Positions 6,243 through 64,000 of a stretch of DNA of 64,000 nt are shown here, piece after piece. Under the pieces are notes generated by a model that made no database searches, was not told the origin of the DNA, and saw only the letters and a program-made list of their open reading frames with translations. The stretch comes from Neobacillus sp. FSL H8-0543. GTDB lineage: Bacteria > Bacillota > Bacilli > Bacillales > Cytobacillaceae. Positions within the stretch are counted from its first letter, which is position 1; each line of letters begins with the position of its first letter. Location: contig NZ_CP151943.1 in the NCBI RefSeq assembly GCF_038592905.1, forward strand, positions 1,490,501 through 1,554,500, written 5' to 3'. The position numbers were made by a program, and so were the translations under genes.

Positions 6243-7226
6243 CTACGCTTCAAAATGCTTTTTAGTTTCAGTAACAAGTAAATTATATAAAATATTGGCC
6301 ACCTTTTTTGGATCATGCCGAAGTGCGCCGTTTTCCTGAATGGCAATGTCAGCATGAACAACCTCAAGGCCAAGCTCGTAAAGCCGTGGCAGATCGTATT
6401 GAACAGGATCAGCCAGCTCTTGATTGTAGCGGAGCTGAATATCCGCAGGTACTTCTTCATTATTGACCAGAATCGTGTCAATAAAAGAACAAGCCATATG
6501 ATCTAATATCGCCCTTACATGGTCACTTGCCGTATATCCATGTGTCTCACCTGCTTGAGTCATTAAATTACATATATACACCTTTTTAGCATGTGAATGA
6601 CAAACTGCTTCACCCAATTTGGGAACAAGGAGATTTGGCAGAATACTTGTATAGAGACTTCCAGGACCAATAATGATTAAATCCGCCTGCCTAATTGCCT
6701 GTAGCGTTTCCGGCAATGGCCGAATCACTCTTGGTGTTAAAAATACCTTTTTAATCTTTTTGCCTGAATAGGGGATTTTCGATTCACCGGAAACGATTGT
6801 TCCATCCTCCATTTCCGCATGCAGAACAACACTTTGATTAGCGGCAGGCAGTACCTTTCCCCGGACATTTAAAACCTTACTCATCTCTTGGATGGCGTGA
6901 ACAAAATTTCCGGTTATCGATGTCATTGCAGCTAAAATCAAATTGCCAAGCGAATGTCCGGAAAGTTCATTCCCTGCTTTAAACCGATGCTGAAACATTT
7001 CTTCAACAAGCGGCTCAACATCCGATAAGGCTGCTAACACATTACGGATATCGCCGGGCGGTGGGATATGCAAATCGTCTCTAAGCCTTCCAGAACTGCC
7101 ACCGTCATCCGCAACGGTCACAATCGCCGTAATATCCACGGGATACTGCTTTAACCCCCGTAACAAAACAGGCAATCCTGTACCTCCACCTATGATGACG
7201 ATTCTTGGCTGTCCAATCTCTCTCAT
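6243..7226 (-). CDS. yvcK: YvcK/CofD-like gluconeogenesis factor (morphogen)
   Basis: Protein of the CofD-like fold that binds UDP-sugars. In B. subtilis it is needed for cell shape and growth on gluconeogenic carbon sources and has been linked to control of peptidoglycan precursor synthesis. The N-terminal nucleotide-binding segment [15 protein letters not shown] and the [14 protein letters not shown] motif are intact. The 327-aa length matches the family. Its ATG overlaps the rapZ stop by four bases, indicating translational coupling. Confidence 0.95.
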
Positions 7227-8122
7227 GTAGTCTTTTCCTTTCTCCGCTCAATGTCACGATGTGAAACACAGGTCTTGTAATCACTTTCGAAAAATCGTCC
7301 AAGATGCTCTGCTAATGCAACAGAACGGTGTTGACCGCCCGTACATCCTATCGCAATGACAAGCTGGGCTTTTCCTTCCCGTTTATAATGCGGAAGCATA
7401 AAGCTGAGCAAATCCGTAACCTTTTCCAAAAATTTATGTGTTTCATTCCACTTTAGGACATAGCTTGAGACCTCTTCATCCAACCCAGTCTTTGGCCTCA
7501 TATGCTCAATATAATGAGGGTTTGGTAGAAAACGAACATCAAAAACAAGATCAGCGTCGATTGGAATCCCATGCTTAAAACCAAATGACATGACATTAAC
7601 AGTAAAGATTGATTTCTTATTTGAGGAAAACTCAGTTAAAATCTTCTCACGTAATTCACGTGGCTTCAGCTGTGAAGTATTATAAATAAGTTGGGCCCTT
7701 CCTTTTAATTCTTCAAGGAGTTCCCTCTCTAGTTTAATTCCTTCTAGTGGTGAAACCGATTGAGCAAGCGGATGTGACCGTCTGGTTTCTTTATATCTTC
7801 TGACTAAAGTAGCATCATCGGCATCTAAAAAGAGGATTTTGGGGCTTACCCATGAAGTTTCTGCCAGCTCATCTAATGCTTTAAATAAAGAATCAAAAAA
7901 TTCCCTTCCCCTTAGATCCATAACTAAAGCTACTTTATTCATTTTATTCCCAGATTCCTTCATGAGTTCTAGAAATTTTGGCAACAGCGTAGGAGGCAAA
8001 TTATCTACACAGAAAAATCCTAGATCCTCCAGGCTTTGGATAGCAACTGTTTTTCCAGCTCCAGACATCCCTGTAATGATGACCATTTGTGTTTCAATTT
8101 GTGAACCGGTACTCATGTCCAT
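7223..8122 (-). CDS. rapZ: RapZ/YvcJ nucleotide-binding protein
   Basis: P-loop protein. The Walker A motif GMSGAGKT lies near residues 18-25, and a conserved C-terminal domain carries [16 protein letters not shown]. In E. coli RapZ guides RNase E to the GlmZ small RNA in amino-sugar control. In B. subtilis YvcJ hydrolyses GTP and affects competence, with the RNA role unproven. The 299-aa length is near the family norm. The gene sits between yvcI and yvcK, with 4-bp coupling to yvcK. Confidence 0.95.
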
Positions 8123-50604: not shown

Positions 50605-50627
50605 GTCGAAAAGAGGAGGTGAAAATG

Positions 50628-50939
50628 ATGGAGCAAATGTTAATGCAAATGATGGATCAAATGAACAAACAATTTGAAAAAATTGATGGCCATTTCGATA
50701 AAATTGAACTTCGATTAGATGGAATTGATCAACGTTTGAATGTGATGGATCAACGCTTTGATGGCATGGATCAACGGTTTGATGGCATAGATCACCGATT
50801 AGACAAGGTAGAAGCCAGCATTGAGTCCCTTAGAGAAACAGTTGAAAATAATGCAACTGAGTTTAGAAGCCATTTCAAACATATTGAAACGAAGCTTGAG
50901 CACCATGATAAAATGTTTGCATTGTTACCTAGGAATTAG
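50628..50939 (+). CDS. Small coiled-coil protein with heptad repeats
   Basis: 103-aa acidic protein without signal peptide. It is built of near-perfect seven-residue repeats (DQRFDGM, DQRFDGI, DHRLDKV) between residues 20 and 65, encoded by 21-bp DNA repeats, then a second coiled coil (SIESLRETVENNATEF). It is likely a trimeric or tetrameric helical bundle. AGGAGG precedes ATGs at 50625 and 50628; the latter has the better 8-base spacing. No function is recognisable. It is one of the few plus-strand genes here. Confidence 0.75.
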   Translation: MEQMLMQMMDQMNKQFEKIDGHFDKIELRLDGIDQRLNVMDQRFDGMDQRFDGIDHRLDKVEASIESLRETVENNATEFRSHFKHIETKLEHHDKMFALLPRN

Positions 50940-51157: not shown

Positions 51158-52492
51158 TTAATTCGCTTCGCCCTCAAACTCACCCTGTTGATGACAAAAT
51201 TCACAGTATACATCAGATGGTGCTTTTGATTTTCCCTCAACTGGCTTTTTATTATCATGACAGACAAAACAGCTTTTTCTTTCTTCTGGTGTTCCTGAAT
51301 TAAGACGATGTTTGTCATATAACCATGAGTAACGGTCCATGTGATTATCAGGCATAGTAGCATGACACACGTAACAGAAATAATTGCTGCTTGTTTCTCT
51401 CGTAACTGAATGTCCATCCTTATTATTTACTCCTGGTTGTTTTTTATCTGCCAATAATGTTCTAATATCTTGTCGTTCCAATGTTTTGACCCATAAGGAA
51501 TTTTTATGGCAGTTGAGGCAAGCTTCCAGCTGTTCAATTGCGTTGTTACCATGATTATCTGACCAGTCCTTTTTATCATGATTTTCAGGTACTTTGATTT
51601 GCTGATGGCAGGTAACGCACTCCATCGAAAGCTTTACATCTGTTTGTTGCTGGCCTAGTGCTTCGAGGATTGTTTTTTGGGTATTCTTAGGTAAATTTCT
51701 CTCTAGCACACCTGCATTTGCCTCAGGAGAATCAATATTTTCTGTAGATACTTCCTTGACCGTTCCCTGTTCCTTGAAATGGTTATTTTTGGGTAGAATA
51801 TAGGCTGTATCCTTCCAAGGCTCTTTTCCTTGATTAACCTTATCGTGACAATCAATACAGGTCCCCATATTAGGCTTTTCATATTCTTGACCCATTAATT
51901 TTTTGGTGTTTTCCTTTGTCCAAGCTGCATATGTAGATGAGCCGTTAATACCCCTTTCTACAATCTTAGCGTGTGCCACTCCGCTGTGACAGCTGATACA
52001 AGGAATTCCTTTATCCACATGCTCGTTGTGATTAACGATTAAATCACCAGTTGCAGTGACTAATCGATTTCTCGAGTGGCATTGTTCACAGCTCTCATTT
52101 GTTACAGCTACTGTCTGTACGATTGGGTCTGGCGGCCCCACAATATGAAAGTAAACTTCTTTAAGAGATTCTACTTTATGTACAACTAAGTTTTTTATAC
52201 CTGGTTCAATATGGCACTGTGTGCATTTTATTTCATTGTGGGGACTAGCCTGAAACGTGACATGCTCAGGTGCCATCTCATGACAATTTTCGCAGAAGGA
52301 TGGTGTTGAGGTATAGGTGATGGCTCCATATAATATACCAATCATGGTAATAAAACATCCTATAGTAACACCTAGCAGTCTCCATCTTTTCAATGTTTTC
52401 TTATTTCTTATCTCTTCCCTGTTAGTTTCCTGTGACTTATCCCAGTCAGATTCTTGTTCAGTTTCTTTTTTGTTATTCTTCCATAATTTCAT
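51158..52492 (-). CDS. Membrane-anchored decaheme c-type cytochrome (NapC/NirT-like N-terminus)
   Basis: About 444 aa. A charged cytoplasmic tail of some 38 residues is followed by one membrane segment (LLGVTIGCFITMIGILYGAI), then ten CXXCH motifs in order: CENCH, CTQCH, CEQCH, CISCH, CIDCH, CVTCH, CLNCH, CYVCH, CFVCH, CEFCH. The first part (FCENCHEMAPEH, CTQCHIEPG, CISCHSGVAHAKI) resembles NapC/NirT quinol dehydrogenases and the larger cytochrome at the right edge. Likely role: accept electrons from menaquinol and pass them outward. GTG at 52501 opens the frame; the ATG at 52492 behind GAGGGTG is used. It lies downstream of prfB, separated by a terminator. Confidence 0.93.
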   Translation of the reverse strand: MKLWKNNKKETEQESDWDKSQETNREEIRNKKTLKRWRLLGVTIGCFITMIGILYGAITYTSTPSFCENCHEMAPEHVTFQASPHNEIKCTQCHIEPGIKNLVVHKVESLKEVYFHIVGPPDPIVQTVAVTNESCEQCHSRNRLVTATGDLIVNHNEHVDKGIPCISCHSGVAHAKIVERGINGSSTYAAWTKENTKKLMGQEYEKPNMGTCIDCHDKVNQGKEPWKDTAYILPKNNHFKEQGTVKEVSTENIDSPEANAGVLERNLPKNTQKTILEALGQQQTDVKLSMECVTCHQQIKVPENHDKKDWSDNHGNNAIEQLEACLNCHKNSLWVKTLERQDIRTLLADKKQPGVNNKDGHSVTRETSSNYFCYVCHATMPDNHMDRYSWLYDKHRLNSGTPEERKSCFVCHDNKKPVEGKSKAPSDVYCEFCHQQGEFEGEAN

Positions 52493-52678
52493 ACTAATCA
52501 CCCTCTTACTAAACTATTTTACCAAAATCCCCTTTTGTCAGATAGATATTTCCAAGGATAATTGGTACGAATTTAGGTCTAAAGTCATTCAAGAAATTAG
52601 TAATATTTGCCCGATTTTAACATTGAAAATGTTATTTTAAAATATTTTTACTCCCATTGAGTTATGTATCCATTTAAT

Positions 52679-52722
52679 AAAAAAGGGAACCTTGCCACTC
52701 ATTCAGCAAGTTTCCCTTTTTT
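52679..52722. terminator. Terminator after prfB
   Basis: Stem GGGAAACTTGC/CAAGGTTCCC-type arms (minus strand, an internal mismatch) flanked by A6 and T6, so it could act on both strands. It separates prfB from the decaheme cytochrome gene. Confidence 0.85.
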
Positions 52723-52723
52723 A

Positions 52724-53825
52724 TTATGAAATTCTTGAACGAAGGTAAGCATCAATAAATGGATTGATATCTCCGTCCATTACAGCCTGCACGTTGCCGC
52801 TCTCGGTACTTGTTCTATGGTCTTTTACCATCGAATAAGGGTGAAAGACATAGGAGCGAATCTGACTGCCCCAGCCAATTTCCTTCTGCTCGCCACGGAT
52901 TTCTAACAGTTCTTTTTCCTGCTGTTCAATTTCGCGTTGATACAGCTTTGCTTTAAGCATCTTCATCGCTGCCTCACGGTTCTTAATTTGCGAGCGCTCA
53001 TTCTGACAGGTAACAACCACATTTGTTGGCAAGTGCGTAATCCTTACAGCAGAATCCGTTGTATTAATATGCTGTCCACCCGCGCCACTGGCTCGGTACG
53101 TATCAATTTTCAAATCCTCTGTACGGATATCAATTTCAATCTCATCATTAAACTCAGGCATAACTTCACATGATACAAAGGAAGTATGACGGCGACCAGA
53201 TGAATCAAATGGTGAAATCCTAACCAAGCGGTGGACACCCTTTTCAGCCTTCAAATAGCCGTAAGCATTATGTCCTCTAATTGCCAAGGTAACACTTTTT
53301 ATCCCCGCTTCATCTCCAGGAAGGTAATCAAGAGTTTCGACCTTAAAACCCTTTTTCTCCGCCCATCTTGTGTACATCCGCAATAACATCGAACCCCAGT
53401 CCTGAGACTCTGTTCCACCTGCACCAGGATGCAGCTCTAAAATCGCATTATGCTTATCATATTCTTCACTTAACAGCAGCTGAAGTTCAAAATCGTTTAG
53501 CCTTGTAGTCAGTTGGGTAAGTTCTTCTTCAAGATCTGCCTGTAATTCAGCATCACTTTCTTCCCTCACAAGCTCATAAGTCAAATCAAGATTTTCATAC
53601 GATTCCACTAACTCACGAAACTCATTTACTTGATCCTTAAGTGCATTTGCTTCATTGATAACAATTTGCGCCTTCTCTTGATCATTCCAGAAATCAGGCT
53701 GAAGCATCTCATCATCGAGCCCGGCAATACGTGCTTCCTTATTCTCTAGGTCAAAGAGACCCCCTAAAGTCGGTTAATTTTTTAGCTGTTTTTTCAAGTT
53801 CATTACGGATTTCTGATATTTCCAT
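52724..53825 (-). CDS. prfB: Peptide chain release factor 2 (programmed +1 frameshift)
   Basis: Release factor for UAA and UGA. The gene is in two frames. A 24-codon leader starts at the ATG at 53825 (GAGGTG 6 bp upstream) and ends at an in-frame TGA (53751-53753). Translation must shift +1 to continue from GAC at 53752 for another 342 codons, giving 366 aa. The GGQ motif is in [12 protein letters not shown] and the tripeptide anticodon SPF is in [13 protein letters not shown]. The shift gives autoregulation by RF2 supply. In B. subtilis it is cotranscribed with secA; here cytochrome genes are the upstream neighbours. Confidence 0.97.
53750..53765 (-). promoter_or_regulatory. prfB programmed frameshift signal
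   Basis: On the minus strand AGGGGG-TCT-CTT-TGA-C: an internal Shine-Dalgarno-like AGGGGG three bases before the slippery CTT and the TGA stop. This is the conserved prfB recoding site. Confidence 0.95.
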
Positions 53826-53969
53826 TTCCATCACCTCTATAAAAAATTGCAATCTGTTATTAGTATATAAATATGTCATTTACAGGTTCCTTATCCATTA
53901 TAGCTTGTATAGAGTAGATATTTCAAAAAATGATTTAATTTATTGGTAAAAAGGGCTTGATTTGGATGG

Positions 53970-54080
53970 TACGCGGAATCAATGGAATAAACAGCGGAAT
54001 GTAGGCAGATTTTCGCAGGATAGTAGTGGTAACACGCGGAATCAATCCATAATCTCGCGGAATCAGACCTCCTACTTCTA
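53970..54080. repeat. Degenerate CGCGGAATCA repeats
   Basis: CGCGGAATCA occurs at about 53972, 54034 and 54053, with related AGCGGAAT and TCGCAGGAT between. The reverse complement TGATTCCGCG also occurs in the gaps near 18480 and 27510, so this is a dispersed intergenic repeat family. Upstream 53826-53969 holds only the prfB leader region. Confidence 0.7.
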
Positions 54081-54209
54081 TTAAAGATGGGTAATCTTCT
54101 GAATAAACGTATTCTTTAAAGCCTTTTTAAATAGAAAATCAACTACCCACTAGAAAACAACACTTATCAACAACTGGTAAAATGAATTCGAAAAAAACAC
54201 CTGATGAGT

Positions 54210-54337
54210 TGTGGGTAAGTCAAGATATTCACATGTTTTTAATTATTTTAGTAAATATTTATCCACATATCTACATATACAACAAACTTATCTACAGAAT
54301 TTATTATCTTCCTTACCAAGGTATTTACTTATCCACA
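54210..54337. repeat. Cluster of DnaA-box-like sites
   Basis: Two perfect TTATCCACA (54259-54267 and 54329-54337), TTATCTACA (54288-54296), ATATTCACA (54225-54233) and, on the minus strand, TTACCCACA (54210-54218). Five matches to TTATNCACA with at most one change lie in 128 bp of an AT-rich gap. It could titrate DnaA or link nearby transcription to replication. No dnaA or dnaN gene is near, so this is not the usual oriC. Confidence 0.6.
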
Positions 54338-54339
54338 TG

Positions 54340-54387
54340 TTTCACAATATAAACGAGAGGACGAATCCTCTCGTTTTTATTGTGAAA
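54340..54387. terminator. Long hairpin after the 11-heme cytochrome gene
   Basis: A 22-bp stem with one mismatch: TTTCACAATA pairs with TATTGTGAAA and ACGAGAGGA with TCCTCTCGT, loop CGAA. T-rich tracts lie within the stem on both sides, so it is a likely bidirectional terminator. Confidence 0.8.
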
Positions 54388-54404
54388 TTTGAGTTAACTT
54401 TAGT

Positions 54405-56606
54405 CTAATGTGCCGGAATGTTTATGTTAGGAAGTGGTTCCTTATGACACGTAGAACAATCCATGTGCTGATTTTGATGGATTGGATCAGTATGACATGT
54501 TTGACATGCCTTATCGTTATTGGCAATTGCGTTGACCACAACTTGATTCTGACTATCATGACAATTAGCACAGGTTACATTTACTGCTTTGTGTGCTTTG
54601 GTTAGTGTATTGGTATGGCAGCCTACGCAGTTACTGTCCATCTGTTCATAAACGTGAAGTTCATCGTGTGAAGCTTCACCATGACATGCTGAACAAGAAG
54701 TATCCTTCTCACTGATTGCTTTCACGACTTCAGGAACCGAACTTTGGTGACATGTATTACAGCTGATAGGGTTACCATCCTTTTCGGTCCGATCATCACG
54801 GGCATGTTCGTGGGTGAGAGATTGTGCATGGCACTTTGTGCAGGAATCGTCGGAGGTTTTGTGGAGTTCTGGGATGTCGTGGTTGTTTAATATTCTGGTT
54901 GGCTGCGCTAAGTAACCTTCATAACCCTTTACACTAACCCCTGGCTGATGACAGATTATACAATCATTCATCTCACGATTTCCGGTTACACGAAGCGGGA
55001 TAGCAGGGTCAAAATTTTTAGGTTGATAATGAATCGTTGGTGTTGATCCATGAGGAGCATAGGCATAGGCACCTTCATCTGGGTCATCATGACACTGACT
55101 GCATCCTGCCTCCACAGTAATATAATTGTGACAGTTTGCACAACGGTTTCTGGAATGCGTTCCTCCAAAGCTAAGAGATTTATGAACATCCTCTAATACT
55201 CCATTTGATCCTGTATAACTAGAAGCATCATGGCATGCTATACAAGCTGTATAATTGGAATCACTCATATCTGGATAGGTATTTACATAAAATCTCCACT
55301 CTTTTTCCGTGGAGTACCCTGATTCATTTACAGTTAAATTAACAGTATGGTTACTTTCATTTTTTAAATCTTCTGTTGGTGTAAAACTTACTAATCCAGA
55401 ATCTTGATCGTAATTTGGACTTACTACCTTATCATCTACCTTCAATACAATGGATTCAAGCTTTACTGAACCATTTGGAGATTTTACAACCGCTGATATA
55501 GTTGGTTTTAAATCCGTCACACCATACTTAATCGGATATACATTGGAAATTACCGGCTTTACAGACACAGAAAAATTCCATGTGCGAGTGATATGGTTAC
55601 CGAGTTCATCTTCCTTGTATAATTCTAAAGTGTGGCTGCCATTAGAAACCATTCCCTCGTATGATATATAAGCTTTATTTCTTGAAGTTATAATGTAATT
55701 TCCATAATAGCTATCAACGTAGCCTTCAAACCTAAAATCAAAAGGTAAATCTTCACCATCCAATTTTAATGTTACATTGTCCTTAATATCTACTAAATCC
55801 TTTAACTGCATATTTATCCTTAGGGGGCCATCAGTGATGGCCGTACCATCCTTAAAACCATTAACGAGCTCTGGTGCAACAGAATCTACGATGAAGTTCC
55901 AAGTTTTTATTCCTTTATTTACTGCGCTATCCATTACTTCAAGTACGGCCGTATAGCTGCCTGTTGTAAAGTCATGATTATAGGTAATCACCCCAGTTTC
56001 CGTATTGATTTCCTGCGGGCTTTTAACTACGTTATTTATCTTAAGCTGAACAGTGTCCCAATCGACTGAAGTATTATCACTTACCACCATGGTTAGTTTG
56101 TTTAAAGTAGTTTGTTTACTTTTATTAGCAGGGCTGATGTTGTTAATCTTAGGAGGCTCCTTTACGGTGAAGCTCCAGGTGTCACTAATTATATTCGGTG
56201 TGCTAGACTTATCTTTGATACTGACCTCAAGCTTGTTTACACCATCTGTAAGATTAGAAGCATCAAAACTTATCGTTCCTTCCCTGCGGTCACTAATTCG
56301 CCATACGCGTCCTTCGTAATAATCATTCACCCAACTGCCCTTATAAAAAAAGGATGCATCTACTTGGTTACCATTTATCCACAACATTACACTTGAATCA
56401 TTTAACTCATTGACGCTTTTTACATAAACCGATATTTTTGGATTAGAGACGGTGATTGTTGAGTTTTTGGCAGGATAGTGATTCGTATAGTAAGTATCAA
56501 CCGCTGAAACATTAAAGGTACTTAAAATTAAAATTGTAGAAAAAAATAAGATGAAAATAAATGATAGTTTACTTTCTAATCTAAAACTTCCCACTTGTCG
56601 AGACAT
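54405..56606 (-). CDS. Secreted Ig-like/undecaheme c-type cytochrome fusion
   Basis: 733 aa. The signal peptide ends near NVSA-VDTYY. About four Ig-like/bacterial adhesin-type beta domains fill residues 36-465, each ending in a WNF or WSF strand (DTWSFTVKEPP, KTWNFIVDSVAPE, RTWNFSVSVKP). The last 260 residues hold eleven CXXCH motifs: CIACH, CANCH, CSQCH, CIICH, CTKCH, CNTCH, CSACH, CVGCH, CANCH, CQTCH, CSTCH. There is no LPXTG, S-layer or membrane anchor at the C-terminus. The beta domains may span the wall while the heme module forms a wire; that is inference. Start has GGAG at good distance. Confidence 0.92.
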   Translation of the reverse strand: MSRQVGSFRLESKLSFIFILFFSTILILSTFNVSAVDTYYTNHYPAKNSTITVSNPKISVYVKSVNELNDSSVMLWINGNQVDASFFYKGSWVNDYYEGRVWRISDRREGTISFDASNLTDGVNKLEVSIKDKSSTPNIISDTWSFTVKEPPKINNISPANKSKQTTLNKLTMVVSDNTSVDWDTVQLKINNVVKSPQEINTETGVITYNHDFTTGSYTAVLEVMDSAVNKGIKTWNFIVDSVAPELVNGFKDGTAITDGPLRINMQLKDLVDIKDNVTLKLDGEDLPFDFRFEGYVDSYYGNYIITSRNKAYISYEGMVSNGSHTLELYKEDELGNHITRTWNFSVSVKPVISNVYPIKYGVTDLKPTISAVVKSPNGSVKLESIVLKVDDKVVSPNYDQDSGLVSFTPTEDLKNESNHTVNLTVNESGYSTEKEWRFYVNTYPDMSDSNYTACIACHDASSYTGSNGVLEDVHKSLSFGGTHSRNRCANCHNYITVEAGCSQCHDDPDEGAYAYAPHGSTPTIHYQPKNFDPAIPLRVTGNREMNDCIICHQPGVSVKGYEGYLAQPTRILNNHDIPELHKTSDDSCTKCHAQSLTHEHARDDRTEKDGNPISCNTCHQSSVPEVVKAISEKDTSCSACHGEASHDELHVYEQMDSNCVGCHTNTLTKAHKAVNVTCANCHDSQNQVVVNAIANNDKACQTCHTDPIHQNQHMDCSTCHKEPLPNINIPAH

Positions 56607-56680
56607 TTTTATACTCCTCTCTATAATCTCTAATAAAAATCATCTTTAACTATCATCGTATCCCTCCCTCAAACCATACT

Positions 56681-56716
56681 AAAAAAAAAACAAACAGACC
56701 TAATTAATAGATCTGT
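56681..56716 (-). terminator. Second hairpin upstream of the 11-heme gene
   Basis: Stem ACAGATCTA/TAGGTCTGT (one mismatch) closing on TTAAT, then TTG and ten T on the minus strand. Confidence 0.75.
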
Positions 56717-56822
56717 AATCAGCAAGTTGTATATAAAACTTTTATAAACAAAAAGAACAAACTCGTTCTTATTTAAGAACATTATATCATAAAAATTCAT
56801 TAAATGAATAAGTGTTTGCAAT

Positions 56823-56854
56823 AAAAAAAACCGGGAAGAATAAATCCTCCCGAT
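56823..56854 (-). terminator. Terminator after the 8-heme cytochrome gene
   Basis: Stem ATCGGGAGGA/TCTTCCCGGT-type arms (minus strand, wobble pairs included), loop TTTAT, followed by T8. Confidence 0.82.
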
Positions 56855-56862
56855 TTCAATTA

Positions 56863-59088
56863 TTACTCTGGTACCATTCCTGTTTTAGGTGCATGTGCAG
56901 CACTTAAGGCTCTTTCAACCTTATTTGCCCCTCTTCCATGACAGAATGAGCAGGGCTCGCTTGGATATGCTGTATGTTCTGGACGAGTTGACTCATACTT
57001 CTTACCTTCGACCCCATAAACGGCAGTTTTACCATCACTGTGACATGCCAAGCAGAAATCACGTTCCTTTTTATCAGATAATAATTTAAACTCGATCTCC
57101 TTGCCACCAATATTAACTTTTACAACTTGACTATCTGGTTCTGTTTCATTTTTATCCTCGGCAGTAAAGGACTTTATATTACTATGTCCTAACGATGTAT
57201 TAAGTTGCTTAATATTGTTAGACCCATGTGTATCATGACACTCTGCACAAGGAAGGTGCCCCGCTAGCGGACTGCCATCCTGCGCTTTAATAATATGCTT
57301 GGAAAATTGCATCTCGTCTGATGTAAACTCCCTATCGGAGTAAGATAATTCAGGATTTGTTTCATAATTTTTTTTGGTTTCTTCGGTCAAATTATTGTAA
57401 TAGCTTGCGATATCCGCAATTTTACTATATTTATTTTTGGTATTCAAATTATGACATCGAAGACAGAGATCAAAATCTTCATAGATTCCGATTGCACTAA
57501 TATTCTTTTTATATTGGAAGACTCGATACTCTACGTCTACTTCAGATTGTGCAAACAGTTCACCAAGACCGGATTCATGACAGGACTCACATAATTGTTC
57601 TTTGCTATTTATTTTTCCAACGGGCTTGTCGTCCTTTAGGATACCAGAATCATGCGTATAAGTAATTTGATCGGGTGCTAAATTAGGATTACCTTCTGAA
57701 CTCTCATTATGTGGACTGTGACAACTTGCACAGGAGCTGCCGCTCGGTTTTCCTGCAATATCAATTGCTGCAGAATGCTTGTGTCTAGCTTGGCTATTTT
57801 CAGGCATAGGTGCAACTGTACCATCATGACAGGCCATGCAATAATCATCCACATGTTTATCAGTATTACCATTTTCACTATTCTGTTTCTGTTCTAATAG
57901 GTTTTGATTCCTTGCTTCGTGTGTATTATGGCAATTGACACAGACATTCACATTATCTGCATAAGCTGCATGAGGACTTTCCCGGTGAACTTTTTCACCA
58001 TTTTTTCCGTTATAATCTATTTCATAAAGCTTTTGTCCACTTTCTGCATCTGTAATTGGTGGAGTGCTTTCCGTCGTAAATGACCAAAACTTAGGAAAAG
58101 CACTGTTACCTGCAGAATCAATAACTCCTAACGGACTAATAAAAACATTATATTTCGTACTCCTTGTTAAAGGCTTTACTGAAGGTATAAATGAAATTTC
58201 TTTTGTGTCCGAGTTATATTTGATGTCTCCCGGAACATCCTTACCATTACTTGTAACACTGATACTTTTGTCAATGTCTACTTCCTTTAATGCATTGGCA
58301 TCTGAAACCCTAAATTTTATTTCCGTGTCTATTGAAACTTGCGTCATATCCTCTGTATAAGCTGGAACAATACTACCCAATACAATAGTTGGACGTAACG
58401 TATCTTTAGTATAAGTAATACCTTGCGGTGTTCCGACATTCCCAGCTAAGTCTATCGCTCTTGCATAAACGGTTTGAGGGCCTTCTGCCAGCTGCGGATT
58501 AGTATAAATCCATTTCTCACTACTATTTTTCTCGACAGTTATCCATGTACTAGAAGCCTCTTCAGTACAATCTTTCAAACAAATTTGCACAGTTGCATTC
58601 GGTTCAGTAATTAACTCAATCGAATGAGAATTTGAGAAGCCACCTTCATCCAAGTCTTTAAACTTTATGGCGGGTGGAAAATCAATTGTAAGATTAGTTA
58701 TAGTCGTGGAGGCAACAGTTATCCCGTCAGCATCGACAAGCCTAGCTTCTATATTATGTGTGCCTTCTGGAAAAAAAACATCCGTAATACTCCAGCTATT
58801 CCCGTTTACAATGTATGATGTACCTTTTTTCTCCGCACCAATAAAAATGCTAATAGTCATCCCTGCTATATAATTTTCAACTGTACCGGAAATAATTACG
58901 TTAGCTACGTTTGAAAACTCATCCGATTTTGGAGAAGTGATCGTTATCTTAGGCTCGGTGCCAGTAATTCCTTCACTATTAACGCTTGAAATTGGTAACC
59001 ATTGTTGGGGACCTAACATTTGAATACATAAAACAAGTATGACAAGTACTTGAAATTTGGTCTTATTTAGAAGGCTTCTATACCTCAT
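56863..59088 (-). CDS. Secreted Ig-like/octaheme c-type cytochrome fusion
   Basis: 741 aa. An N-terminal signal peptide (VLVILVLCIQMLG core) is followed by two Ig-like domains (about residues 45-235), a Big_5-type domain with SAGNSAFPKFWSFTTES (about 240-345), and eight CXXCH motifs from about residue 385: CVNCH, CMACH, CASCH, CESCH, CLRCH, CAECH, CLACH, CSFCH. Several carry the doubled CXXCH pattern with following His (CASCHSPHNE, CAECHDTHGS). There is no C-terminal anchor. It is the same architecture as the 11-heme neighbour but a different heme spacing, so the two are not simple duplicates. Two terminators lie downstream. Confidence 0.92.
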   Translation of the reverse strand: MRYRSLLNKTKFQVLVILVLCIQMLGPQQWLPISSVNSEGITGTEPKITITSPKSDEFSNVANVIISGTVENYIAGMTISIFIGAEKKGTSYIVNGNSWSITDVFFPEGTHNIEARLVDADGITVASTTITNLTIDFPPAIKFKDLDEGGFSNSHSIELITEPNATVQICLKDCTEEASSTWITVEKNSSEKWIYTNPQLAEGPQTVYARAIDLAGNVGTPQGITYTKDTLRPTIVLGSIVPAYTEDMTQVSIDTEIKFRVSDANALKEVDIDKSISVTSNGKDVPGDIKYNSDTKEISFIPSVKPLTRSTKYNVFISPLGVIDSAGNSAFPKFWSFTTESTPPITDAESGQKLYEIDYNGKNGEKVHRESPHAAYADNVNVCVNCHNTHEARNQNLLEQKQNSENGNTDKHVDDYCMACHDGTVAPMPENSQARHKHSAAIDIAGKPSGSSCASCHSPHNESSEGNPNLAPDQITYTHDSGILKDDKPVGKINSKEQLCESCHESGLGELFAQSEVDVEYRVFQYKKNISAIGIYEDFDLCLRCHNLNTKNKYSKIADIASYYNNLTEETKKNYETNPELSYSDREFTSDEMQFSKHIIKAQDGSPLAGHLPCAECHDTHGSNNIKQLNTSLGHSNIKSFTAEDKNETEPDSQVVKVNIGGKEIEFKLLSDKKERDFCLACHSDGKTAVYGVEGKKYESTRPEHTAYPSEPCSFCHGRGANKVERALSAAHAPKTGMVPE

Positions 59089-59334
59089 TTAGCACCTCTC
59101 ATTTCTACTATATTTGCAGTGGCAAAATGTTGTTCTCTCAATATATATTCTATTCCTATTTAAGGGAAGGTTCTAGAGAATGGGGAGATAATTCAACAAA
59201 TATTCATATATATAATGTTAAAATATAGATTACTATTCAAAGGAAATAACTACAAAGTCAAGGCACTAATATCATATTTTGTAAATAGATATATTTGACA
59301 ATTTTATGACTGAAATGTTAAAATTACAGCAAAT

Positions 59335-59368
59335 AATAAGGTGCTATGCCGAAGCATAACACCTTATT
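59335..59368 (-). terminator. Hairpin after the six-heme cytochrome gene
   Basis: Stem AATAAGGTGTTATGC/GCATAGCACCTTATT with two wobble or mismatched positions, loop TTCG. The tail is only weakly T rich. The remainder of 59089-59426 is AT rich with nothing else recognised. Confidence 0.7.
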
Positions 59369-59426
59369 CCATGCTATTTACTCTTTGAGCTAATAATTAG
59401 TTGCAGCTAATTGTTAGCTTATTTTA

Positions 59427-60989
59427 TTAATTGCCTGTTGGCATTCCATTTGGGTGATCAGCACGACGCTCAGCGTTCTTAATTGTCTCAGCATGAGAGC
59501 TGTTGTGACATGCCCAACATACTGACATGTTAGTGAACTTCTTAAGAGCTGAAGAAGCGTTGTTGTCTTGCATGTAACCAAGAGCTCCAGTCTCATCACC
59601 TACAAATGCTCCACCTGTTGCAGTTAAGTCAGCAATCGTCTTACCCTGAGCATCCTTCATGATGTAAGCATCAGTACCATGAGAGAAGTGGCAGCGTACG
59701 CAAGTGTAGCTATCGCTGTTTGTGCTGTGACGGTATGCAGCAGTTTCATCGCCGAAGTGAGAACCACCACTAGTACTGTTTGAAACTAAGTAGTCAGTAT
59801 GACAAGCTGCACAGAATTTAGACATTTGAACACCGACGTTTTTAACAGTACCAGCAGATACTGTGTAGCCAAGGTCTTTTAATTCTTGTTCAGATTTACC
59901 GCCAAATTGAGCGATAGGGGCACCACTCCAGAAAGCGCTTTGTACTGTGTGGTTATATGGTCCCTCTTGGGCCATTTGAACCACTACAGGACGAGCGATG
60001 AAACCTTTACCAGCAGTTTTAAGTGCATCAGCACCTGCAGTAGAGGTAGAGTATGCTTCAGCATGTTCGTAATCGAAATAAACACCTGAAGTTGAACCGT
60101 AAGCAGCAATTATATCATCTGTAGTTTCAGGAGTAGCATCTGCTTTAACTAAACGTGACCAGTAAGATAGACCATTTGTACGACTGTCATAACCATATAA
60201 CCATGGTGCAGTAGATTTTGTGTAAGCAGAAGCACCTTTGTTATATTGAGCTACGGTTACTTTACCATCAACATCTTCTGTACGTAGTAATACTACAGCA
60301 GGAGCTGAAGCATCAACAGCTGGTAATGCATCCACAACAGGAACGTTTTCTAATTGGTTACCACCTTTAGAAGCTGGCATTGAAGCAATTCCGTTTGGAT
60401 TGTATTGTAATAAACGGTCAGAGTAAGATCCGTGTGGAGCGTGACAGCTTGCACAGTTGAATTTTTCTCCCCACATTGTGCCTCTAATTTTGTCATCAGA
60501 TGTGTCCGCATCAGTTTGGTCAGCTGGATTTCCACCAGGAGCAGCACTGATATTCACAGAATCGTTAGACATATGCATAGAAGAACCGTGAGAACCTCCG
60601 AAAGTACCCGCTCCAGTCGCAGAAGCCGATTCACCTGGAGTAAAAACGTTTAAGAATCCTAAAGTACCATCATGACAAGCAGTACAAGTATTATAAACAC
60701 CATCAGCAAATAACAATTGATCGCCTTTTGCAGTATGTGTTTGGTGACAGCTTGCACAAGAGTTTGTATTATTTTGATAAGAAGTGTGAGTCTTATGACC
60801 TTGTAAATTTTTAATTACCGTACCAGCAGTGGTACCGTCATTTGTGTCAACACCCTCAGCAGTTTTGTTTGCGTTCTGGTTTACAGGTTCAGCTGTTCCT
60901 GGAACCATTGGACCTTCTGCAGAAGCTGCGATTGCAAATATGCCAAACAGCATAAGTGCAAATAAAAAGCTTAAACTAAACTTTTTCAT
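59427..60989 (-). CDS. Secreted hexaheme c-type cytochrome
   Basis: 520 aa. A clear signal peptide ends at AASA-EGPM. Six CXXCH motifs occur in two groups of three: residues 78 (CASCH), 102 (CTACH) and 169 (CASCH), then 393 (CAACH), 430 (CVRCH) and 481 (CWACH). A heme-free region of about 215 residues rich in small and aromatic residues lies between. Extra His residues suit bis-His ligation (SCASCHQTHTAKG, CVRCHFSHGTD). There is no membrane anchor. Size and heme number recall filament-forming cytochromes such as Geobacter OmcS, but homology cannot be shown by eye. GGGAGG precedes the ATG, after an unusual GA-rich leader. Confidence 0.92.
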   Translation of the reverse strand: MKKFSLSFLFALMLFGIFAIAASAEGPMVPGTAEPVNQNANKTAEGVDTNDGTTAGTVIKNLQGHKTHTSYQNNTNSCASCHQTHTAKGDQLLFADGVYNTCTACHDGTLGFLNVFTPGESASATGAGTFGGSHGSSMHMSNDSVNISAAPGGNPADQTDADTSDDKIRGTMWGEKFNCASCHAPHGSYSDRLLQYNPNGIASMPASKGGNQLENVPVVDALPAVDASAPAVVLLRTEDVDGKVTVAQYNKGASAYTKSTAPWLYGYDSRTNGLSYWSRLVKADATPETTDDIIAAYGSTSGVYFDYEHAEAYSTSTAGADALKTAGKGFIARPVVVQMAQEGPYNHTVQSAFWSGAPIAQFGGKSEQELKDLGYTVSAGTVKNVGVQMSKFCAACHTDYLVSNSTSGGSHFGDETAAYRHSTNSDSYTCVRCHFSHGTDAYIMKDAQGKTIADLTATGGAFVGDETGALGYMQDNNASSALKKFTNMSVCWACHNSSHAETIKNAERRADHPNGMPTGN

Positions 60990-61009
60990 TCTTAAAACCT
61001 CCCAAATTT

Positions 61010-61049
61010 CTCTCTCTTTTTCTCTCTCTTTTTTCTCTCTTTTTCTTTG
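61010..61049 (-). repeat. Purine-rich AGAGAGAAA leader tract
   Basis: Forty bases immediately before the ribosome site of the hexaheme gene consist almost only of A and G on the coding strand, in repeats of AGAGAGAAA or AGAGAGAAAAA. The transcript would have an unstructured purine leader, which could act as translation enhancer or RNA-stability element. Confidence 0.7.
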
Positions 61050-61156
61050 ATTTGTTATGAAAAAACAATCTGTACTTACTTTTCTATACCACCCCCCTTA
61101 AATGTGAAGGAAATTGGTTATTTACTTATTTGATTCTTTTATTATGCTTCTGACTA

Positions 61157-62128
61157 TTAGTTGAAAACTTGAACCCTTAGGTTAACTGTATCGGTGATGA
61201 AAACATTATCGTTCTGGTCGACGAACAATCCATTAGGGAGGTAGAATTGTCCATTTTGTTCACCCATGCCACCCATTTGGAATACTTTTTTACCATCCTT
61301 GTCGAAACCATATACCACATGGGTTAGGTTGCTGACAACGTACATAATACCGCGGCTGTCGAAGCCAATTCCTCTAGGGTTAACAAAAATGGATTCACCT
61401 TTTCCATTATTGGAACCATTAATTATTTTTACAAACTTCCCTTTTTTGTCGAAGATTTGCACTCGTTGGTTTCCTGTATCAACTACGTAAATATCACCTT
61501 CCTCATCAGCGGTAATCCCATTTGGTGCGTTAAACTCACCCTCATTTGTACCAGGCTTACCAATTTCAAGGAGTAACTTACCCTTCATATCAAACACATA
61601 TACTTTATTGTCCTTTATATCTGTTACATAAACCTTCTTATCGAGAATACGCAGCGCCGCTGGAGATGAAAATTTCCCATCCTTGCTTACTTCAGGAGCA
61701 AAGTACTCGATAAATTTACCTTTTTCATCAAAAATTGAGATATTTCCATTATATAAATCTGCTACGAAAACTCTTCCCTTTTCATCTGTCGAAATCCCAT
61801 ATGGGAACTTAAATTGTCCCTCACCAGAACCATCCTCGCCAAAGGAAAAGAGTAAATTTCCGCCGACATCAAATGCTAGAACACGTTTATTATCCGTATC
61901 CGATACATAGGTAAAAGATTCATTTGCTGTTACATCCATGGGCTTTTTGAGTGGTTTGTCAAAGTCACCAGTGAGCGACATACTGTAATTTGGTGCCCCT
62001 TTTGGATCAAGAACCTTTAATAATCCAGTATCAATTGCTTTTGTATTATTTAGAAATAAGAAGGTAAAAACCGCTGCCGTGGCTATAACAATGAGAGCCA
62101 TTCCAATATACACATTACGTCTTTTCAT
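61157..62128 (-). CDS. Membrane-anchored NHL-repeat beta-propeller protein
   Basis: 323 aa. One N-terminal membrane segment (VYIGMALIVIATAAVFTFLFL) is followed by six NHL blades outside the membrane, each with the pattern DNKRVLAFD, FKFPYGISTDEKGRVFVAD, FNAPNGITADEEGDIYVVD and similar. NHL propellers bind proteins, RNA or ligands; there is no catalytic signature. The start lies 2 bp after the TPR gene stop, so the two are coupled. NHL genes beside multiheme cytochromes are known in metal-reducing bacteria, which suggests a role in assembly or docking; that is inference. Confidence 0.9.
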   Translation of the reverse strand: MKRRNVYIGMALIVIATAAVFTFLFLNNTKAIDTGLLKVLDPKGAPNYSMSLTGDFDKPLKKPMDVTANESFTYVSDTDNKRVLAFDVGGNLLFSFGEDGSGEGQFKFPYGISTDEKGRVFVADLYNGNISIFDEKGKFIEYFAPEVSKDGKFSSPAALRILDKKVYVTDIKDNKVYVFDMKGKLLLEIGKPGTNEGEFNAPNGITADEEGDIYVVDTGNQRVQIFDKKGKFVKIINGSNNGKGESIFVNPRGIGFDSRGIMYVVSNLTHVVYGFDKDGKKVFQMGGMGEQNGQFYLPNGLFVDQNDNVFITDTVNLRVQVFN

Positions 62129-62130
62129 CG

Positions 62131-62829
62131 TTATTCACCCTTAGCCTTTGTGTCTTTATCTTTCAGTCTATCTAGGGCATCTACTGCGTCGGTATACAAT
62201 GGATCATATGCAAGAGCATCCTTGTAAATAAGAATCGCGTCCTCATAATCACCTTTTGCTTCAGCAACCATTCCAATTTGGTAAATAATATCAGAGTTTG
62301 TTGGAGCTAACTTGTTAGCTAGTTCCAGTGCCTTTGTCGCATTATCAAACTCTTTTAACCCGCGATAAGCGATTCCCATTTGCACATGTCCCTTAAAGTC
62401 TTTAGGAGCGATTTTTACAGTCTTTTCGAACTCAATCAGCGCCTCATTATAACGCTCTTCATCTAAAAACACTAAGCCCAAATTGTAATGGGCATCATAA
62501 TAATTTTTGTCTTGTTCTAGAACGAAATCAAACTCTTTAATTGCTTTTTCATTATCACCTTTTAAGAAATAGGTATAACCTAACACAATACGGTTTTGCA
62601 GATTTGCTGGATCTTTTCTAACCTCTTCCTTGTAATACGCGAGCTGCTCCTTCACTCTTTTCATATCAAGGTCATTCCAAAAATACAAGTGACCAAGAGC
62701 ATATCCTGTACCTACTGAAATGATTAAAGTGATAAGCAACAGCAGAACACTCGTTCTCTTTTTGAAAGTCCTTGGCTGCTTCTTTGCTGTTTTTCCCTCT
62801 ACTTCCTGAGGTATCTTTTCTGTTTCCAT
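62131..62829 (-). CDS. Membrane-anchored tetratricopeptide-repeat protein
   Basis: About 232 aa. A basic N-terminal tail (KKQPRTFKKR) and one membrane segment (TSVLLLLITLIISVGTGYAL) are followed by about five TPRs (YTYFLKGDNEKAIKEFDF, YNLGLVFLDEERYNEALIEF, VQMGIAYRGLKEFDNATKAL, GMVAEAKGDYEDAILIYKDA). The topology resembles CcmI/NrfG-type proteins that hold apocytochromes for heme attachment, though no sequence signature proves it. The frame opens at 62874, but AGGGG precedes the ATG at 62829. It lies between the 12-heme cytochrome and the NHL gene in a tight operon. Confidence 0.88.
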   Translation of the reverse strand: METEKIPQEVEGKTAKKQPRTFKKRTSVLLLLITLIISVGTGYALGHLYFWNDLDMKRVKEQLAYYKEEVRKDPANLQNRIVLGYTYFLKGDNEKAIKEFDFVLEQDKNYYDAHYNLGLVFLDEERYNEALIEFEKTVKIAPKDFKGHVQMGIAYRGLKEFDNATKALELANKLAPTNSDIIYQIGMVAEAKGDYEDAILIYKDALAYDPLYTDAVDALDRLKDKDTKAKGE

Positions 62830-62870
62830 ACTTAATTCCCCTCTCGGAATCTTTTCTTTTGCTGTTATGG

Positions 62871-64000
62871 TCACTTTTTATTTGTGTGACACTTAGTACA
62901 CGTTTTTTCAACATGACATTTTAAACAGGACTTATTATATTTTTGATTTTCAGCTACTTCGATTGGATGACTACGCCTCCATGTTTCCTTATGCTTGTTT
63001 ACATGACAGGAAGCACATTGAACCTTTGTGACAGGCGAATTACTTGTAATCCGATTTTCATGGCAAGTGAAACACTTTTGTGTATCCTTTGATTGGTGTC
63101 CATGCTCTGTCGCGAAAGAGTCAATTTTATGGCTTTCTGGTTTTTCTCCGTGACAGTCTTTGCAGAAGGTATTAGTCTTTGCGTATACATTAACCGTTAC
63201 ATTAGTTGAGTCAGTTTCTTCATTATTCAAATACTTTTTATATGTCGAATCTTGCTTAAATAAATCATATTCTGCTGACGACATATAGGAATGACATTTC
63301 TCACATGTCTCTAATTCTGAAGGCTTTATTTTCCCATGATCGCCAGCTTTGAATTTTTCTGTTTTATGATCATCTGGAATCATTGTCGATTCGTGACAGG
63401 CTGTACATTCCAGCGGTGCCTTTCTTACTTTATGACATTCCATACATGTATCCATTTGTGGACGTATGTACTTACTGTCACTCATTACCGAGGCCCCTAA
63501 CTTGTGATTCCATTTTCCATAATCACTTTTGTAGGTCATTTTCCGATCTGAAATTTCCCCGTGCGCTGTACCGCTATGACACTGAACACACTCAATTCCT
63601 TCGGTTTTATGCTTATCATGCGGGATAATAATATCCCCAGATGGAGTTACGGCGCGACTTTCGATATTATGACATCTTTCACAGGCTTCATCCGGTATCA
63701 AACTCGGCATTTTAATCGGTGCAAGGTAGGTGTCTGTCTGCTTTTTATAAAATTCAACTACACCGTTTGCTTGGGCCTTTGCATAATTCTCAACACCTGG
63801 ATCAATATGACAACTGACACAGTCGACCTCACTATGACTCGATGCCTTTAATGTATAATACTGCGGTTTCATCTCATGGCAGGAGGAGCAGAACTCTTGA
63901 CTTGAAGTCGTCTCTACTCCTATTAGCCCCAATGCGAAGAACACAACTATAAACATTACTCCTACTGTTAAATATTTAAATAATTTGTAACCTTTCCGGG
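62871..64000 (-). CDS. Membrane-anchored dodecaheme c-type cytochrome (NapC/NirT-like), 5' end off the right edge
   Basis: At least 376 aa are encoded; the frame stays open to base 64000, so the true start is outside. One membrane segment (YLTVGVMFIVVFFALGLIGV) leads to twelve CXXCH motifs: CSSCH, CVSCH, CERCH, CVQCH, CMECH, CTACH, CEKCH, CKDCH, CFTCH, CASCH, CLKCH, CTKCH. The first four align in spacing and context with the decaheme protein at 51-52 kb (FCSSCHEMKPQ, CVSCHIDPGVENY, CVQCHSGTAHGEI), so they are paralogues. Likely quinol-facing entry point of an electron conduit. It is the first visible gene of the cytochrome-TPR-NHL operon. Confidence 0.93.
   Translation of the reverse strand, partial: RKGYKLFKYLTVGVMFIVVFFALGLIGVETTSSQEFCSSCHEMKPQYYTLKASSHSEVDCVSCHIDPGVENYAKAQANGVVEFYKKQTDTYLAPIKMPSLIPDEACERCHNIESRAVTPSGDIIIPHDKHKTEGIECVQCHSGTAHGEISDRKMTYKSDYGKWNHKLGASVMSDSKYIRPQMDTCMECHKVRKAPLECTACHESTMIPDDHKTEKFKAGDHGKIKPSELETCEKCHSYMSSAEYDLFKQDSTYKKYLNNEETDSTNVTVNVYAKTNTFCKDCHGEKPESHKIDSFATEHGHQSKDTQKCFTCHENRITSNSPVTKVQCASCHVNKHKETWRRSHPIEVAENQKYNKSCLKCHVEKTCTKCHTNKK

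Follow-up and report, generated by a model that had tools for sequence, protein, structure and literature searches.

Cytochrome-based electron export by Gram-positive bacteria is, to our knowledge, documented chiefly in a small number of thermophilic anaerobes for which genetic tools are scarce or absent. In Thermincola ferriacetica, ImdcA (Tfer_0070), whose N-terminus reads GIRD, is followed five locus numbers on by the hexaheme Tfer_0075, which was named CwcA (PMC7911101). Here we describe a multiheme cytochrome operon of Neobacillus sp. FSL H8-0543 that was found in a stretch of 64,000 nucleotides (hereafter the window; bases 1,490,501–1,554,500 of NZ_CP151943.1, within the 5.30 Mb single contig) and that we compare with the ImdcA–CwcA operon. 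We estimate at roughly 70% the probability that it encodes a conduit of the ImdcA/CwcA kind, which would lead electrons from menaquinol through the Gram-positive wall to the outside. An initial annotation of the window had already proposed an electron-export chain: homology and gene order matching Thermincola imdcA–cwcA, together with the lack of a catalytic signature, have strengthened this proposal, and it is for these reasons that we infer export itself.

The five multiheme genes listed in that annotation, all on the minus strand and with 10, 11, 8, 6 and 12 CXXCH motifs (47 in total), were correctly placed and counted. A chance origin of the motifs is excluded, as residue shuffles of the same proteins yielded on average 0.009 to 0.092 motifs and never more than 2 (1000 shuffles each). 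The set is nevertheless not confined to five cytochromes, since a third NapC/NirT protein and two membrane-anchored, heme-free proteins belong to it as well. The first gene of the operon, NapCa10, lies wholly past the window end (65444–64071 in the window frame, minus strand like all genes of the set) and encodes a decaheme NapC/NirT protein of 457 residues with 10 motifs, which brings the set to six multiheme proteins and 57 motifs; on its far side, in the flanking DNA, follows the divergent secA. Next comes NapCb12 (62871 to beyond 64000, start codon at 64034 in the window frame), a membrane-anchored dodecaheme NapC/NirT protein of 387 residues. It is succeeded by a TPR protein (62131–62874) and an NHL-repeat propeller protein (61157–62128), each with one N-terminal hydrophobic segment and no hemes, and each in a slot that is kept in relatives. 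The operon continues with HEX6 (59427–60989), a secreted, CwcA-like hexaheme, with Ig8 (56863–59088), an octaheme with an N-terminal Ig-like (Big_13) region, and with Ig11 (54405–56606), an undecaheme with an Ig-like region that only some relatives possess. The remaining decaheme, NapCc10 (51158–52501), is a paralogue of NapCa10 (47% identity) that lies beyond prfB and thus, by position, outside the operon transcript. With the heme-free TPR and NHL partners inside, this is an ordered operon that goes beyond the five cytochromes. The predicted topologies also held: the two NapC/NirT-type anchors have N-terminal domains above the Pfam cut-off and an N-terminal hydrophobic segment, and all three proteins called secreted have a hydrophobic N-terminus, albeit a weak one in the octaheme (best 19-residue mean 1.59). 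A search of these three for an LPxTG motif, a lipobox or a strong later hydrophobic segment found none.

The link to Thermincola comes from two metagenome-assembled genomes (MAGs) labelled Thermincola ferriacetica. They hold close copies of the Neobacillus cassette (NapC12–TPR–NHL–hexaheme–Ig8 in L067/L068; NapC12–TPR–NHL–hexaheme in L099/L101) as well as a distant set (L098/L100) encoding a decaheme, a dodecaheme, a 17-heme protein, TPR and NHL proteins, a hexaheme, a 14-heme protein and a 34- or 24-heme protein. The decaheme of the distant set carries MGIRD near its N-terminus. By position and by this ImdcA-type N-terminus, both read in two MAGs and not in the deposited sequences, we infer that L098/L100 represent the imdcA…cwcA operon. 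Of the multiheme proteins encoded there, the HEX6 profile matches the hexaheme alone (E 1.6e-17 and 5.8e-15; none of the others up to E 10), and the NHL and TPR profiles match the corresponding genes. The very heme-rich proteins that follow this imdcA-like operon lie at L098:3516–6581 (34 CXXCH) and L100:3884–6280 (24 CXXCH).

What HEX6 might do can be judged from its heme ligands. Besides the motif histidines, six further histidines are invariant in 35 aligned hexahemes (positions 68, 85, 139, 186, 421 and 437 of P0005), and all 12 ligand histidines are kept in 46/46 proteins: 35/35 long hexahemes, 9/9 short ones and 2/2 proteins at the cwcA position. This suggests six bis-His hemes with no open site and hence a relay rather than an enzyme. 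A Pfam NapC/NirT match above the cut-off (27.1 bits) falls in the C-terminal heme part of HEX6 and does not mark an anchor. At the quinol side, NapCb12 has NrfH as its closest relative of known structure (E 3.3e-14), and a CXXCHxM first motif, which we take to mark an NrfH-like quinol site, occurs in 51/52 NapCb12 and 46/47 NapCa10 sequences. The conserved histidines beyond the motifs number 10 in NapCa10, for 10 hemes, and nine in Ig8, for eight hemes. The profile of the Ig8 family returns bacterial Ig-like adhesin domains and, in the PDB, 7tfs (E 1.4e-4), presumably OmcE. Only HEX6 and Ig8 gave paired-CXXCH matches at E 0.001 in their own genome, which also encodes ResB for heme attachment. 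Over the same 14 loci, median pairwise identity is 0.59 for NapCa10, 0.55 for NHL, 0.53 for NapCb12, 0.48 for TPR, 0.41 for HEX6 and 0.32 for Ig8; that divergence is highest in HEX6 and Ig8 would be expected if these two were outermost.

From these features we propose the following path: NapCa10 and NapCb12, held in the membrane by their N-terminal helix, would take electrons from quinol at a first heme of the CXXCHxM type and hand them on from heme to heme along each row. HEX6, with six bis-His hemes and no catalytic site, would serve as a secreted relay through the peptidoglycan, and Ig8, plus Ig11 where present, would carry the electrons to or beyond the surface. The membrane-held TPR and NHL proteins may assemble or dock the secreted cytochromes. 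Predicted in this scheme are the direction of electron flow, the passage through the wall, the role in assembly, the regulation and the final acceptor, for which Fe(III)/Mn(IV) oxides, humics or electrodes are candidates.

The homologue search and co-occurrence mapping that the initial annotation had suggested uncovered a conserved gene order. With hexaheme P0005 as the query and one genome for each species, 36 loci were found, whose hosts are Neobacillus, Mesobacillus, Pseudoneobacillus, Evansella, Bacillus, Desulfosporosinus, Thermincola and MAGs: NapC12–TPR–NHL–hexaheme occur in this order in 35/36 and are preceded by a NapC decaheme in 31. L081 has the hexaheme alone, and in L083 the edge of the locus truncates the NapC decaheme, behind which an additional NapC stands. 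All 36 hexaheme matches above 150 bits (35 loci) have six motifs. In three congeners examined (L110, L111 and L112), the hexaheme slot is filled by three tandem short hexahemes of 379–421 residues with the same 12 histidines. Within the genus, the dodecaheme was matched in 56/61 genomes (weakly or in part in four: G024, G025, G046 and G054) and the hexaheme profile in 53/61; the latter was found in 80/193 genomes and 11/25 genera of the family, and in 29/398 genomes and 23/267 genera of a phylum sample. The cassette is thus rare in the phylum and normal in the genus, so that it is no oddity of this genome. Loci from 12 genomes of the genus are identical over 1 kb to named records, which include Neobacillus niacini PL-B1 and F8, N. 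rhizosphaerae, N. dielmonensis and Neobacillus sp. DY30 and OS1-33. Among the hosts is Mesobacillus subterraneus (L060). A title in the reference list of PMC4392138 calls this species, as Bacillus, iron- and manganese-reducing, and a passage of the same article credits relatives of a strain with the reduction of Fe(III) and Mn(IV); the reduction is reported for the species, not for the sequenced L060. Our search of the open-licence literature found nothing tying Neobacillus to multiheme electron export.

Transcription would start beside secA, from a promoter with the conserved element TATTCACAAATTGTACATTGGA (also given as TATTCACAAATTGT). Its core, ATTCACAAA, stands upstream of NapCa10 in 26/29 regions and ATTCACAAATTGT in 23/29, between −85 and −120 relative to the start that was chosen; these 29 regions (28 loci plus our own; L062, L066, L067, L068, L072, L081, L082 and L083 have no usable NapCa10 upstream region) come from related hosts and are not independent counts. 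The bases just upstream of the element are far less conserved, and a second conserved stretch follows downstream towards the gene. WATTCACAAATTGT occurs twice in the genome, with one copy here. We take ATTCACAAA to be the reverse complement of the ResD box; induction at low oxygen would then be expected, and ResD as the regulator is our guess. A literature search for the ATTCACAAA string did not find it. Two other candidates were rejected: the Fnr palindrome was met in 25/29 regions at ≤2 mismatches versus 6.9 in Markov-sampled controls, an excess owed to a conserved TTCACA half, and exactly in 2/29; the Rex box was met in 10/29 at ≤2 mismatches versus 1.3 in controls, and in none with fewer than 2. 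Many loci conserve a leader, TTAGATACTACCTTTAGAGAGGTTAA, that separates the promoter element from the start codon (about 65440–65570 in the window frame) and could be a −10 region plus an operator or RNA element.

Several points weigh against an export conduit of the ImdcA/CwcA kind. The crossing of the wall by CwcA is itself a model: the protein made in E. coli was insoluble, its model was built on OmcS, with which it shares 18% identity, and wall spanning is a proposal of the authors (PMC7911101). The comparison covers the ImdcA–CwcA operon part of the Thermincola pathway, to which OcwA and PdcA also belong; a PF13447 search of the Neobacillus genome was empty, as were its controls. Moreover, the NapC profiles do not pair one-to-one with the two Thermincola NapC proteins, for those of NapCa10 and NapCb12 each match both, and the 12-heme protein scores best for both. 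NapCb12 has just 10 conserved further histidines for 12 hemes, none of the secreted multihemes has an LPxTG wall anchor, and the promoter element is absent from L059, L060 and L084. Finally, the Neobacillus operon is known from its genes.

Other functions were weighed on the same evidence. NapC/NirT proteins feed reductases of soluble acceptors in known systems, and here they might supply a secreted enzyme, for example Ig8, that acts on nitrite, hydroxylamine, tetrathionate or some other oxide of sulfur or nitrogen, as could be argued from NrfH being the nearest solved relative and from OcwA, a Thermincola surface cytochrome, reducing oxyanions too (PMC7911101). We hold this to be unlikely: no operon protein contains CXXCK, CX3CH or CX4CH, and a conserved histidine for each heme in HEX6 and nine for eight in Ig8 leave no open site to be expected. 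The more specific idea that the operon is a cytochrome c nitrite reductase NrfHA, a homology that would have spoken against the initial annotation, was rejected, because the operon proteins lack CXXCK and another place in the genome, L017, encodes a CYTCK-containing NrfA/NrfH-like pair (E 3e-94 and 4.1e-36; neither protein reaches the curated NCBIfam cut-off). Against the NrfH model, the 10- and 12-heme NapC proteins reach 58.5 and 63.2 bits at a cut-off of 134.2.

The sequences fix no direction, and bis-His relays can run both ways. The same conduit might therefore work inwards or in both directions, with Fe(II), Mn(II), other cells or surfaces as electron donors; we rate this as rather improbable, since NapC-type quinol-side anchors head the operon and the Thermincola pathway was proposed as an outward one. 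Secreted cytochromes can also reduce metals unspecifically, so that the set could be conceived as a non-respiratory sink at the surface, serving to reduce toxic metals or oxidants or to store electrons. Nothing speaks directly for such a sink, and the quinol-side NapC12 that heads the hexaheme in 35/36 loci, joined by a second NapC in 31/36, points to respiration and makes it very improbable.

Beyond a conduit for export, an OmcS-like wire built from HEX6 is possible as a hypothesis, with one hexaheme profile that matches OmcS and another that does not. The profile of the long hexahemes reaches OmcS in the PDB at E 1.7e-6, the sole other match up to E 10 being 6r2q (0.029); the OmcS match consists of short blocks around two motifs, one of them out of order. 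The chain 6r2q_A is labelled cystathionine beta-synthase in the PDB; we take the entry to be an Mtr complex. The short-hexaheme profile did not reach OmcS at E 1 and matched 6r2q (4.2e-6) and 7tfs (0.0018) instead, and single-sequence P0005 gave a best E of 0.018 against the PDB, without an OmcS match. An AlphaFold model of HEX6 has a mean pLDDT (predicted local distance difference test) of 55.3, with heme regions below 50, and is confident only in the central insert (approximately residues 205–390); a PDB fold search with this weak model was uninformative (best E 0.68). A more elaborate scheme, which we consider doubtful, would have HEX6 or the three tandem short hexahemes stack end to end via shared histidine ligands into a polymeric wall wire, with NHL and TPR as a dedicated membrane-held assembly machine, Ig8 capping or docking the wire outside, and low oxygen inducing the system via the element beside secA. 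If it were true, an entire genus of spore-forming soil bacteria would normally have extracellular respiration in reserve.

The surroundings of the cassette bear on its history. Divergent secA is the nearest recognized gene before the cassette in 27/36 loci. Nine of these 27 have prfB behind secA, with the cassette sitting between secA and hpf wherever the far side is readable (for example in L069–L071); in 18, a type that includes the window, the secA–cassette block is turned and the cassette faces prfB. A check for scars covered six genomes without a hexaheme match (of eight such congeners, G024, G025 and G054 were left out). Four cassette-less congeners (G009, G010, G015 and G059) have an inverted secA flanked by hpf and prfB, the order that loss from a turned block should leave, and this arrangement looks like a scar of cassette loss; G032, a congener, and G066, from another genus, have the usual gene order. 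A recent mobile island is not supported, given the adjacency to secA and the apparent losses. Clostridia-type hosts may have passed the cassette on in an older transfer: besides our own, 28 genomes of the phylum sample gave a match, and all of them are listed as sharing the phylum only, not the class, and the tree was flagged for long branches.

Some further observations concern neighbouring genes. The prfB frame (window 52724–53707, minus strand) is matched by TIGR00020 only from position 32, the first part of the protein being missing; presumably this truncation reflects use of the known programmed frameshift. A short open reading frame with DQRFDG/DKKFDA-like heptad repeats, probably a coiled coil (window 50619–50939, plus strand, and L111:2009–2401), sits in both genomes between a YitT-like gene and the prfB side, on the strand opposite to its neighbours. 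In L011 (approximately 1104–1520) and L012 (approximately 7050–7364), antisense frames repeating RKYHFPP..NQPVF-like units lie opposite secreted proteins, which points to DNA repeats inside the genes of large secreted proteins in the vicinity.

If export is the function, an ordinary soil spore former may be able to breathe solids. The metal reduction that has been reported for Mesobacillus subterraneus might then have its basis in this operon. Since Neobacillus and Mesobacillus, the hosts of this retained, promoter-marked version, should be simpler to culture and to modify genetically, gene deletion could serve to test how cytochromes cross the wall.

Among described systems, the Thermincola operon (Tfer_0070 to Tfer_0075; TherJR_1117 to TherJR_1122) shares with ours the order NapC decaheme, NapC dodecaheme, TPR, NHL and hexaheme, and its hexaheme shares with HEX6 all 12 histidines and a specific profile match. 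It differs in that a 17-heme gene separates dodecaheme and TPR and that the hexaheme is followed by 14- and 24/34-heme genes, whereas Neobacillus has Ig8 or Ig11 instead, and its hexaheme slot holds either one longer protein with a central insert or several short hexahemes in tandem. Quinol dehydrogenases of the NapC/NirT kind, NrfH among them, resemble NapCa10 and NapCb12 in the N-terminal anchor, the first hemes and the CXXCHxM first motif, but the proteins described here have 10 and 12 hemes and no catalytic partner in the operon. OmcS of Geobacter likewise has six hemes, and the tandem hexaheme paralogues of some congeners recall omcS–omcT, which a passage in PMC11934962 calls an operon. 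In contrast to HEX6, which is known from genes, OmcS is known as a filament in Geobacter, and short hexahemes lack an OmcS match; the abstract of PMC11077965 presents the importance of cytochrome filaments in Geobacter as disputed. NHL proteins near cytochrome genes are mentioned in published excerpts on Desulfovibrio ferrophilus and Geoalkalibacter. The hexahemes of Firmicutes near Carboxydothermus SmhB are, as matched by description and not by sequence, probably the same proteins as HEX6; the portion of PMC7829351 on its tree gives this cluster no assigned function and mentions bacillary hexahemes, for which the operon would offer a candidate role. Taken together, these comparisons suggest that the operon is a Bacillaceae variant of the Thermincola-type set, with export as the best explanation of its predicted function.

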